DNA of 64,000 nt, from positions 1-64,000 of the forward strand of contig JAJPES010000009.1 of the NCBI GenBank assembly GCA_021166725.1, read 5' to 3'. The DNA is from Burkholderiaceae bacterium. Its GTDB lineage: Bacteria > Pseudomonadota > Gammaproteobacteria > Burkholderiales > Burkholderiaceae_E. Positions 17,944 to 21,566 of the stretch are shown one piece after another. Below the pieces are notes generated by a model. It worked only from the letters and a program-made list of their open reading frames with translations, was not told the origin of the DNA and did no database searches. Both the position numbers and the translations under genes were made by a program. Numbering within the stretch: position 1 is the first letter of the stretch; each line of letters opens with the position of its first letter.

Positions 17944-20436
17944 CTACCCGCTCGTGTAGTTCTCGAACTTCGTGTACTGCCCGACGAAGGTCAAGCGCAC
18001 CGTCCCGATCGGACCGTTGCGCTGCTTGCCGATGATGATCTCGGCAACGCCCTTGTCGGTCGAGTCGGGGTTGTAGACCTCGTCACGGTAGATGAAGACG
18101 ATGACGTCTGCATCCTGCTCGATCGCTCCCGATTCCCTCAGATCCGACATCACCGGCCGCTTGTTCGGCCGCTGCTCGAGCGAGCGGTTCAGCTGCGACA
18201 GCGCGATCACCGGGCAGTCGAGCTCCTTGGCCAGGGCCTTCAGCGAGCGCGAGATCTCGGAGATCTCGGTGGCGCGGTTCTCGCCGCTGCTGGTGGCCGA
18301 CATCAGCTGCAGGTAGTCGACGACGATCAGGCCGAGCCGTCCGCACTGGCGCGACAGCCGACGCGCGCGCGCGCGCAGCTCGAGCGCGTTCAGCGCCGGC
18401 GTCTCGTCGATGAACAGCTGCGCGTCCTGCATCTTCTGGATCGCGCTGGTCAGGCGAGGCCAATCGTCGTCGACGAGCCGCCCGGTGCGCAGCCGCTGCT
18501 GGTCGAGCCGGCCGACCGAGCAGACGAGTCGCATCGCGAGTTGCGTAGCGCCCATCTCCATCGAGAAGACTGCGACCGGCAGCCCCTGGTCGATCGCGAC
18601 GTGCTCGGCGATGTTCAGCGCCAGCGCGGTGTTGTGGGTGACGACATAGTCGTCGGTGACATACAGCTGGCTCGGGTGTGAGACCGAGATGCACTGCACC
18701 GGAGCTTCTCGCAACGCTTCGATCGACTGCAGTACCGGCATCTTGCGCCGCGTACGACCATGGGCGACACGCGCAACCTTTTCGCCCATCAGAAACAGGC
18801 TGGCGGGGTCGGGGTGACTGATCGTGCACACGAACGCTGGCAAACCGTTACGGCGGAGGCCGGTCGCGAAATGATCGTGCGCGACGTCACCCTCGCCGTC
18901 TTCGCGATTGCCTGCTCGATCGCCGCTCGCCCGATACGTCGGCTGCTTGTTCCGGATCGAGCACCAGCCGCCGAGCGATCGCACGAGAGACTGCACGTCG
19001 CGTGCGAGCCGTTCGCTCGCCGTCGAGAGCCGCACCGTTCCCCAGCGCTCCACCCATCCGTCGGTATCGAGCAGTCCTCGCAGCAGGTCGAGCCGCGCAC
19101 TTCGGCTCGCTCCGAGATAGCACTCGGGGATGAACTTCTCCTGGGACGCTCTACCCCAAAGGCCGAGCGCTCCGAGTTTCCCCTTGAGGGGATTCGGTCG
19201 GCGGCCGACCTGGCCACGCGCAATTCCCCGGTCCGGCTGCACGACGCGCCAGTCGCAGCCGGATGCTGCGTGCAGAACGAGGCCCTCGCCGACCCGCTCC
19301 CGCATACGCTCGAGCACGTCGTCTGCGACATTGGAAAAGCGGATCGACCCGCCGCGCAGGCAACCATCCCCCAGCAGCGCGCCGAGCACCCACGGATCGA
19401 CCGGCAGCGCTTCTTCATGGCCGAAGTCTCCGGACGGCATGTCGATCCACAGTCGCCCCTGGTAGCGCACGCGGCCCAGCATCTCGCGCAGCCGAGTGGT
19501 GCTCAATACCCGAGGCGCATCCCACTCCCGATAGTGCACGCGCCACAGATGCTCGTCGCAGCACTCGGTGCTACGCCCATCGGAAAACCGTATGCGGTAG
19601 ACGGGGCGTATGCCTTGCGGATAGATGCCGGTGACCGTCGACGGCATTCCATCGACCGACGCGAGCGCGTCACCTACCGAGAGCTCGCCCATCGCCTTCC
19701 AGCCGTGCGACGTGAGCACGCGCGCGTCGAGCGGCTGCGCCTTGCCCATCGACGGCCTGCCCGCCACGATCACCAAGTCCCCCGGCTGCAGCCCCGACGT
19801 CATCCGATCGAGATCGACGTACCCAGTGGGCACGCCGGTGACGTCGTTCGGATTGTTCTGGTTGTACAGCTCGTCGATGCGCTCGACGACCTTGCCGAGC
19901 AGATCCGGCAGCGGCTGGAAGCCGGCCTGTCCGCGCGCGCCGTCTTCGGAGATCTGGAAGACCTTCGACTCGGCTTCGTCGAGCAGCTGGCGCGTGTCCT
20001 TGCCGGACGGATTCAGCGCCGACGTGGAGATGTCGTCGGCGGTGGAGATGAGCTTGCGCAACACCGCGCGGTCGCGAACGATTTCCGCGTAGCGGCGGAT
20101 GTTCGCCGCCGACGGCGTTTCCTGCGCGAGCGCGTTCAGGTAGACGAGGCCGCCGGCGTCGTCGTCCTTGCCGGCGACCTTCAGCGCTTCGTAAACGGTT
20201 ACGACATCGGCCGGGTGGCTGCGCTCGATCAGCCGGCCGATCTGGTGCCAGATCAGCCGGTGGTCGTAGCGATAGAAGTCGTCCTCGCGCAGCAGGTCGG
20301 CCACGCGATCGAAGGCGGTGTTGTCGAGCAGCAGTCCGCCGAGCACCGCCTGCTCGGCTTCGATCGAGTGCGGCGGCACGCGCAGCGCCGCGATCTGCGG
20401 ATCGGAGGATGCCCCGCCCTGCGGAACCGCGGACAT
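17944..20436 (-). CDS. dnaB: Replicative DNA helicase DnaB, interrupted by an in-frame intein
   Basis: 830-aa precursor. Exteins (residues 1-232 and 603-830, 460 aa joined) form a complete DnaB: N-terminal DnaG-interaction domain starting PPHSIEAEQAVLGGLLLD, then the RecA-like ring ATPase with VVDYLQLM (Walker B) and DLRESGAIEQDADV. The Walker A motif is split, GRPSMGK at 226-232 and TALALN from 603, by a 370-residue intein, so the helicase can only work after splicing. DnaB unwinds DNA at the replication fork. The gene follows rplI after 47 bp, the usual place. The upstream part of the reading frame shows no damage. Confidence 0.97.
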   Translation of the reverse strand: MSAVPQGGASSDPQIAALRVPPHSIEAEQAVLGGLLLDNTAFDRVADLLREDDFYRYDHRLIWHQIGRLIERSHPADVVTVYEALKVAGKDDDAGGLVYLNALAQETPSAANIRRYAEIVRDRAVLRKLISTADDISTSALNPSGKDTRQLLDEAESKVFQISEDGARGQAGFQPLPDLLGKVVERIDELYNQNNPNDVTGVPTGYVDLDRMTSGLQPGDLVIVAGRPSMGKAQPLDARVLTSHGWKAMGELSVGDALASVDGMPSTVTGIYPQGIRPVYRIRFSDGRSTECCDEHLWRVHYREWDAPRVLSTTRLREMLGRVRYQGRLWIDMPSGDFGHEEALPVDPWVLGALLGDGCLRGGSIRFSNVADDVLERMRERVGEGLVLHAASGCDWRVVQPDRGIARGQVGRRPNPLKGKLGALGLWGRASQEKFIPECYLGASRSARLDLLRGLLDTDGWVERWGTVRLSTASERLARDVQSLVRSLGGWCSIRNKQPTYRASGDRAGNREDGEGDVAHDHFATGLRRNGLPAFVCTISHPDPASLFLMGEKVARVAHGRTRRKMPVLQSIEALREAPVQCISVSHPSQLYVTDDYVVTHNTALALNIAEHVAIDQGLPVAVFSMEMGATQLAMRLVCSVGRLDQQRLRTGRLVDDDWPRLTSAIQKMQDAQLFIDETPALNALELRARARRLSRQCGRLGLIVVDYLQLMSATSSGENRATEISEISRSLKALAKELDCPVIALSQLNRSLEQRPNKRPVMSDLRESGAIEQDADVIVFIYRDEVYNPDSTDKGVAEIIIGKQRNGPIGTVRLTFVGQYTKFENYTSG
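18631..19740 (-). mobile_element. DnaB intein with LAGLIDADG endonuclease, class 3-like
   Basis: Residues 233-602 of the DnaB precursor, inserted between Lys and Thr of Walker A. Block A: AQPLDARVLTSHGWKAMGEL; the first residue is Ala, not Cys or Ser. Block B: TECCDEHLW with His296 and Trp298. Two LAGLIDADG helices: VLGALLGDGCL (349-359) and LLRGLLDTDGWV (451-462). Block F: VQCISVSHPSQLYV with Cys582. Block G: VVTHN with Thr600, His601 and Asn602; the next residue is Thr603. Trp298/Cys582/Thr600 fit the WCT triplet that defines class 3 inteins, which use the block F Cys as first nucleophile. Both endonuclease aspartates are present, so homing activity is possible. Confidence 0.93.
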
Positions 20437-21248: not shown

Positions 21249-21566
21249 TCAGGTTGGCTCGCCGCTCGAGGTCGAGGCGGGAGCGAATTCGGTGACGTGC
21301 ACGACGAGCGACTTCGACTGGCGGCGGCGCGGCGCGAGGAAACCGTCGACGACGATCGACGCGCCGAGCTGCAGCCGGTCGGCACGCGCAGCGATCGCTC
21401 CGGCGAAACGCAGCGCGACGTCGAATTCGAGCTGGCGCGCCTGTCCGGCCTCGGTCGCCTCGGAGCGGTGGCTGAGCCGCGCGCCGAGCATCGCGATTCC
21501 CGCCGGCGTGTAGCGCAGCGCTTCGCGCTCGATGAGGGTGCCGCTCAGCTGCACGCGATTGCGCAC
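21249..21566 (-). CDS. priB: Primosomal replication protein PriB
   Basis: 105-aa single-domain OB-fold protein that helps PriA and DnaT reload DnaB at stalled forks by binding single-stranded DNA. The NRVQLSGTLIEREALRYTPAGIAM segment, QLEFDVALRFAG and the basic loop before SLVVHVTEF are family features. It starts at GTG, 90 bp after the rpsF stop codon. The location between rpsF and rpsR is the conserved one. Confidence 0.93.
   Translation of the reverse strand: MRNRVQLSGTLIEREALRYTPAGIAMLGARLSHRSEATEAGQARQLEFDVALRFAGAIAARADRLQLGASIVVDGFLAPRRRQSKSLVVHVTEFAPASTSSGEPT

Follow-up and report, generated by a model that had tools for sequence, protein, structure and literature searches.

A full-length class 3 intein in the Walker A motif of a Burkholderiales dnaB and its patchy distribution among related genomes

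The stretch of DNA analysed here (the window) comprises 64,000 nucleotides of contig JAJPES010000009.1 from a Burkholderiaceae bacterium and carries, like all features given below on the minus strand, a gene for an intein-containing precursor of the replicative DNA helicase DnaB (dnaB, 830 aa; 17944..20436), recognized from its open reading frame and family matches and free of internal stops. The N-extein (residues 1-232; 19741..20436) ends in GRPSMGK with the Walker A Lys, and the C-extein (residues 603-830; 17947..18630) starts with the +1 residue Thr603, the Walker A Thr; the two are separated by a class 3 intein of 370 aa (18631..19740). A preliminary description of the locus had placed 370 extra residues between Lys232 and Thr603, and the reading frame confirms an insert exactly between these two residues of GRPSMGK-T, that is, at DnaB insertion site b, which PMC6195587 defines as the junction of the Walker A Lys with the Ser/Thr that follows it in DnaB. 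Taking the insert out leaves a DnaB of 460 aa, the extein parts of which match the Pfam domains DnaB_C (E 1.6e-105) and DnaB N (E 2.4e-34); the best NCBIfam model, the replicative helicase equivalog NF005424, is matched in two stretches with 861 bits against a cut-off of 834. Furthermore, dnaB of another genome of the same genus (G010) is uninterrupted and shows 96% and 98% identity to the window gene on the two sides of the junction. This near-identical, uninterrupted gene, together with the intein-free 460-aa DnaB, excludes a chance origin of the insert.

Class 3 inteins are defined by Trp at B:12, Cys at F:4 and Thr at G:5, the WCT motif (PMC3196547; PMC5050341). The splicing residues of the insert are Ala1, His64, Trp66, Cys350, Thr368, His369 and Asn370, followed by the +1 Thr (Trp66, Cys350 and Asn370 being Trp298, Cys582 and Asn602 of the precursor, with Asn370 at 18631-18633). 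Position 1 lacks Ser, Cys or Thr and hence the class 1 nucleophile, its Ala (19738..19740) being shared by 26 of the 26 bacterial copies that have the N-end. Block B (19543..19563) reads Cys60-Cys61-Asp-Glu-His64-Leu-Trp66, with His at B:10 and Trp at B:12; block F (18658..18699) holds Cys350 at F:4 (18691-18693), the expected first nucleophile; and block G (18631..18648), with the sequence YVVTHN, supplies Thr368 (G:5) and the terminal His-Asn. In the WCT motif, T stands for Thr368 rather than for the +1 residue, Thr being found at both places in this intein. In the phmmer search, DnaBi1 of Mycobacterium smegmatis was the best match among solved structures (6bs8, E 4.4e-9), and the alignment pairs Trp66 with Trp67, Cys350 with Cys118, Thr368 with Thr137 and Asn370 with Asn139 (M. 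smegmatis residues numbered as in PMC6195587 and PMC5222942), although its C-terminal segment is weak by itself (8.6 bits). The class 1 intein gp41-1 (native 6qaz; 6riz with a grafted WCT motif) came close behind this class 3 top match; 6riz was the top match in the profile search and was slightly ahead of the class 3 DnaB inteins in the fold search. His64, Trp66, Cys350, Thr368, His369 and Asn370 are identical in all 90 aligned inteins, namely 26 bacterial (of 27, the N-truncated Paraburkholderia copy being omitted), 55 dereplicated viral (of the 80 fetched, near-copies and short ones being omitted) and 9 other ones. Judged by motif, the class 3 signature put forward in the preliminary description is confirmed.

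The second part of the intein is an apparently intact LAGLIDADG endonuclease with putative DNA-cutting activity, again in line with the preliminary description. Two LAGLIDADG motifs with acidic residues are present, the first in block C (WVLGALLGDG with Asp125; 19363..19392) and the second in block E (LDLLRGLLDTDGWVE with Asp227; 19048..19092), and Pfam LAGLIDADG_3 (PF14528) matches the insert with an E-value of 2.4e-8, at protein residues 450-495. An AlphaFold2 model of 390 residues (10 flanking ones on each side), computed from 31 alignment rows (the window, 4 bacterial loci and 26 of 80 viral loci, hand-picked among those matching from residue 1), reached a predicted local distance difference test score (pLDDT) of 88.8 and a predicted template modelling score (pTM) of 0.87, and the intein is predicted to fold as a splicing domain plus an endonuclease domain. 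At E<=0.001, Foldseek matched the model to 42 solved chains. The leading 16 of these are two-domain LAGLIDADG inteins such as TliVMA and PI-SceI, which match over both domains, followed by gp41-1 and then by the class 3 DnaB inteins 6riy, 6bs8 and 6rix, which superimpose on part of the splicing domain with 2.1-6.3 A, depending on the chain. In the endonuclease part, about 21 residues of low model confidence (18859..18921, limits approximate) are present only in the window copy among the copies aligned.

The window genome (G000) contains a single dnaB match at E<=1e-20. Because this is the only match in an assembly that is 89% complete (3.57 Mb in 88 contigs), it can fairly be inferred that replication depends on splicing. 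Upstream, dnaB is adjoined by rplI, encoding ribosomal protein L9 (20486..20998; Pfam), then by a gene for a single-strand binding protein of Pfam family SSB_1, by its position probably priB (21249..21566), and an S6 domain is found farther upstream. Such surroundings are the standard chromosomal setting for dnaB, and the gene is, as previously described, a chromosomal dnaB of betaproteobacterial type interrupted at P-loop site b. GC content at third codon positions (GC3) drops from about 0.91 in the extein to 0.776 in the intein, and the intein lies below the extein in 23 of the 27 copies at site b.

These 27 copies comprise the window and 26 further records, mostly from Burkholderiales, with an intein at the same dnaB site. 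A contig scan yielded four loci, in Trinickia diaoshuihuensis, Burkholderia guangdongensis, a Paraburkholderia metagenome-assembled genome (MAG) and the gammaproteobacterial MAG RIFOXYD12_FULL_61_37. In genome samples of increasing taxonomic breadth, which overlap and each include the window genome, intein matches were found in 11 of 74 family genomes (E<=1e-25), every one in dnaB; in 17 of 399 order genomes, of which 16 have it in dnaB and G296 has it in a different protein; in 3 of 369 class genomes (E<=1e-20), with G000 and G598 having the intein in dnaB; and in 5 of 398 phylum genomes, with dnaB being the host in G000, G147, G292 and G406. By these counts the intein is patchily distributed yet by no means unique. 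The earlier view of a useful new member therefore stands insofar as a member is added, but not as regards its isolation, since 16 of 399 order genomes carry a dnaB intein at this site; the window intein is not an isolated novelty or rarity, and site b inteins are spread through dnaB of Burkholderiales. In the titles and abstracts of the open-access literature searched, we found no description of a betaproteobacterial DnaB class 3 intein; from Burkholderia vietnamiensis, a plasmid-borne class 3 intein in IcmO is known (PMC5222942). Inteins outside dnaB were also encountered. The window genome has an intein with a LAGLIDADG domain in gyrase subunit B (L061, 552-5501, minus strand, G000:C24) and a third LAGLIDADG intein in a dCTP deaminase-like protein (L060, 686-2563, minus strand, G000:C85), and a related full-length intein of 33% identity was found in plasmid matches H48-H52, four of which are from Enterobacteriaceae and one of which (H48) is annotated inside TraD.

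Occupancy of the site was examined in the genus set of 18 genomes, in 17 of which dnaB could be read. Besides site b, these genes may be interrupted at a second position, site a, by inteins that start with Cys after SDLRE and end with HN before Ser (SDLRE/C ... HN/S, the slash marking the junction; L040, L041, L213 and others) and that are mostly 422-423 aa long, with shorter copies in G009 (153 aa) and G036 (146 aa). Site b alone is filled in 4 of the 17 genomes (G000, G011, G014, G016), site a alone in 7 (G005, G006, G008, G009, G012, G013, G015) and both sites in 2 (G003, G004). The empty alleles that the preliminary description had proposed to look for in sister lineages exist, G010 being an example, and neither site is filled in 4 of the 17 genomes (G001, G002, G010, G017). 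RecB was taken as the species marker because RpoB was not found in the window genome; RecB itself was not found in G001 and G017. On the RecB tree (16 genomes, 15 labelled; RecB of G011 is a long branch), the pattern requires a minimum of 5 changes for site b and 6 for site a. For the nine genomes in which a single contig holds both dnaB and recB, all inner branches of the tree are well supported and 3 changes are counted at each site, with three sets of neighbours unlike at site b, namely the window and G012, G014 and G005, and G003 and G008. Site b occupancy does not follow the RecB tree.

Pairwise divergence points in the same direction for one pair of filled alleles. The inteins of G016 and G004 share 94.6% identity with a synonymous divergence (dS) of 0.21-0.22, compared with a dS of 0.36 for the exteins and 0.59 for RecB. 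In approximately unbiased (AU) tests, the RecB tree rejects a clade of G016 and G004 (p-AU 7.7e-5) and the intein tree rejects a clade of G014 and G016 (p-AU 0.009), both pairs having been picked after the trees were seen and G007, G011 and G013 having been left out. Between the window and G014, G016, G004 and G003, dS is 0.59-1.36 for the intein and 0.34-0.43 for the extein, and part of the higher intein value could come from different codon use. G014 and G015 differ by a dS of 0.07 in RecB and 0.27 in the dnaB extein, a contrast due either to gene conversion or to wrong binning of a 5.2-kb contig.

The endonuclease is found in different states among the site b copies. Both LAGLIDADG acids are kept in 20 of the 27, the window included; one copy (G287) has lost one acid with the remainder intact, and six (G011, G034, G019, G077, G030 and G233) have decayed endonuclease motifs, with one Asp still aligning in G030. 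All seven have kept the splicing residues. The ratio of nonsynonymous to synonymous divergence (dN/dS) of the endonuclease, obtained as counting estimates for 18 pairs (the decayed genus copy of G011 was not among the window comparisons), is 0.19, 0.19 and 0.18 between the window and G014, G016 and G004, respectively, and 0.31 between the window and G003; the decayed pairs G019-G077 and G019-G034 give 0.50 and 0.92, respectively. The low values for the window are signs of purifying selection on the endonuclease. In a further pair, L218 and L223 (G455, G292), the endonuclease parts have a dS of 0.13 versus 0.78 for the splicing parts, as if one part had been swapped alone.

We consider it highly probable that a full-length class 3 LAGLIDADG intein interrupts the Walker A motif of the only dnaB found, splices via Cys350, homes into empty GRPSMGK-T alleles, moves horizontally and loses its endonuclease once fixed. 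After translation, Cys350 (F:4) would attack the peptide bond between Lys232 and Ala1, the N-extein would be transferred to Thr603, and cyclisation of Asn370 would release DnaB with a restored P-loop. The endonuclease would cut empty dnaB alleles of the GRPSMGK-T type, with the filled allele serving as the repair template, and horizontal movement among related bacteria would be followed by loss of the endonuclease after fixation. The splicing chemistry, the DNA cleavage and active homing today are what we infer in this scheme, and the empty, filled and decayed alleles fit the textbook homing cycle. Several observations weigh against it. The dnaB contigs of G004 and G015 are short (6.5 kb and 5.2 kb, respectively), so that the contrasts seen with these two genomes could stem from wrong binning. 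The endonuclease dN/dS between the window and Trinickia is 0.41, and dS is often near 1, which makes all dN/dS values rough. Finally, a possible mark of co-conversion, a step in extein dS between the window and G010 from 0.15 before the site to 0.35 between sites b and a, had to be dropped because G010 and G012, both without a site b intein, give the same step (0.16 and 0.42).

The same data bear on the possibility that the intein splices normally but that its endonuclease is already inactive and the intein is inherited vertically as a fixed relic. The six of 27 copies with decayed motifs but intact splicing residues, and the seventh that is minus one acid, are what such a fate would produce, and the additional loop of some 21 residues within the window copy's endonuclease domain could be read in the same way. 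Nevertheless, this copy keeps both acids and motifs, its endonuclease shows the low dN/dS values given above, and its own small clade includes G012, on linked contigs, and G010, both without the site b intein, all of which renders the relic improbable.

About equally unlikely is that the intein is kept as a gate of DnaB, with an active-site thiol or metal halting splicing under stress and thereby pausing replication. For DnaBi1 of M. smegmatis, which occupies the same site, PMC6195587 and PMC7360933 describe inhibition by H2O2 and zinc, with Cys118 of block F pairing with Cys48 on oxidation and zinc being bound with Val119 and Tyr128. The zinc ligands Cys118 and Tyr128 align with Cys350 and Tyr360, the latter nearly invariant in a 10-row alignment, and Cys61 is present in 26 of the 26 bacterial copies aligned. 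The partner Cys48, by contrast, is replaced in all 26, the window having Val47/Tyr48 at its place, so that the M. smegmatis redox toggle cannot be carried over to the window. Moreover, intein presence varies freely between species, a pattern that hardly points to a required regulator. By its sequence position, Cys61 may be a candidate partner thiol of Cys350; it lies at block B position 7, which aligns with Asp62 of M. smegmatis. The neighbouring Cys60 occurs in 22 of the 26 bacterial copies, and a Cys at 60 or 61 in 37 of 55 viral and 9 of 9 other inteins. The conserved thiols may serve as a lead on gating and are not evidence of regulation. A class 2-like route, in which Thr603 itself would attack the N-junction and the role of Cys350 would be purely structural, would agree with Ala as residue 1, class 2 inteins likewise lacking a Cys, Ser or Thr nucleophile there (PMC7664689), but is very improbable given that the full WCT set is identical in 90 of 90 inteins and that the tested class 3 DnaB inteins at site b follow the block F Cys pathway (PMC5222942).

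Among the 66 of 74 family genomes in which the P-loop type could be read by alignment, an intein occupies site b in 11 of 42 GRPSMGK alleles versus 0 of 24 others (5 GRPAMGK and 19 ARPSVGK; Fisher p 0.005, uncorrected for kinship). P-loop type as a barrier to the site b intein is a lead only. As to site a, all five GRPAMGK alleles (G005, G006, G009, G012, G036) carry a site a intein with site b empty, and this type accounts for 5 of the 8 alleles with a site a intein but for 0 of the 12 lacking one (Fisher p 0.004, uncorrected for kinship), a count that covers 20 of the 55 family alleles with an empty site b, the other 35 having been left out. Mutual exclusion of sites a and b found no support: the linked contigs provide only three independent pairs (sign test, median p 0.5), and both sites are filled in three family genomes (G003, G004, G079). 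Interference between neighbouring inteins has been reported for haloarchaeal MCM (PMC10643990).

A profile search of viral contigs recovered at least 581 relatives, of which 80 were kept (55 after dereplication). The junction is GK/T in 77 of these 80 loci, GK/S in one and AK/T in one, and is poorly placed in the last (L181), the match of which starts late; 52 of the 55 dereplicated loci have GK/T. The stricter Walker A pattern, [AG]x4GK[ST], is matched by 58 of the 80 loci and 38 of the 55, and many of the loci outside it resemble helicase motif I, GLGKT. The hosts of seven viral proteins scanned are one DnaB, three superfamily 2 (SF2) helicases, two ClpB-type AAA+ proteins and one protein resembling structural maintenance of chromosomes (SMC) proteins, the last below the Pfam cut-off. 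The principle is already known: PMC5050341 describes an insert placed between the P-loop Lys and Thr as classic and proposes transfer of class 3 inteins between phages and mycobacteria. GK/T was rejected as a universal class 3 rule, as nine further phage hits, hand-picked from 518 records (seven from a spread list and two from the best list, with the start shifted back if the match began at query residue 4 or 5), have GK/T in three cases, GK/S in three, GK/C in one and other junctions in two; the H-x-W and THN marks are kept in all nine. Phage capture of the window copy was likewise rejected, its six peptide patterns being matched by no viral contig and the best viral relative listed being 50% identical. 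In a quick tree of the 90 inteins, the 26 bacterial DnaB site b inteins group with viral L112 apart from the rest, the deep split having a support of 54. Among phage proteins in RefSeq, eight with the intein are named DarB-like antirestriction proteins (H5, H12, H19, H21, H23, H26, H30, H35); several matching GenBank phage records say helicase or terminase, and the DarB-like name may come from the shared intein.

On a broader and much more tentative view, the window copy may be part of a class 3 lineage that is carried mainly by phages and specialised on Lys/Thr of ATP-binding loops, which would home ectopically between unrelated ATPase families (DnaB, SF2 helicases, ClpB-type AAA+ proteins and perhaps SMC-like ones) and land repeatedly in chromosomal dnaB, where its turnover between sister species would be continuing; the invariant Cys61, a second thiol beside the reaction centre, might then replace the M. 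smegmatis redox partner in the bacterial branch.

The window intein resembles several known systems in part. It shares the host protein, the P-loop site, the WCT motif and the His-Asn end with the DnaB inteins of M. smegmatis (DnaB-1 or DnaBi1) and M. leprae; these, however, lack an endonuclease, being mini-inteins of 139 and 145 aa, and have +1 Ser and, in M. smegmatis, Asp at block B position 7 (PMC6195587, PMC5222942), whereas the window intein has 370 aa, an endonuclease and +1 Thr, a Cys in place of that Asp, and no Cys48. The unannotated DnaB inteins of Trinickia diaoshuihuensis, Burkholderia guangdongensis and the Paraburkholderia MAG have the same site and motifs, with 62% identity in the best segment, but not the approximately 21 extra residues. 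Class 3 motifs, full length with an endonuclease and the GK/T junction also characterize the replicative helicase of Xanthomonas phage LucasX (38.9% identity) and DnaB of IMG/VR contig L112 (50%), although the phage class 3 inteins differ from the window copy in residing in phages and often in other ATPase families. PI-SceI and the archaeal VMA inteins have a similar two-domain fold of splicing and LAGLIDADG parts but splice by the class 1 route and are only 13-16% identical.

The single intein is ordinary in kind, and its value lies in the surrounding comparative series. Full-length class 3 DnaB inteins in Burkholderiales chromosomes are added to those known, and for them the redox toggle described so far should not be taken for granted. 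Within one genus, an essential replication gene exists in alleles that are empty, that hold an endonuclease-bearing or a decayed intein, or that carry two inteins, so that the homing cycle, as well as the interference of neighbouring inteins with each other, becomes testable in that genus.

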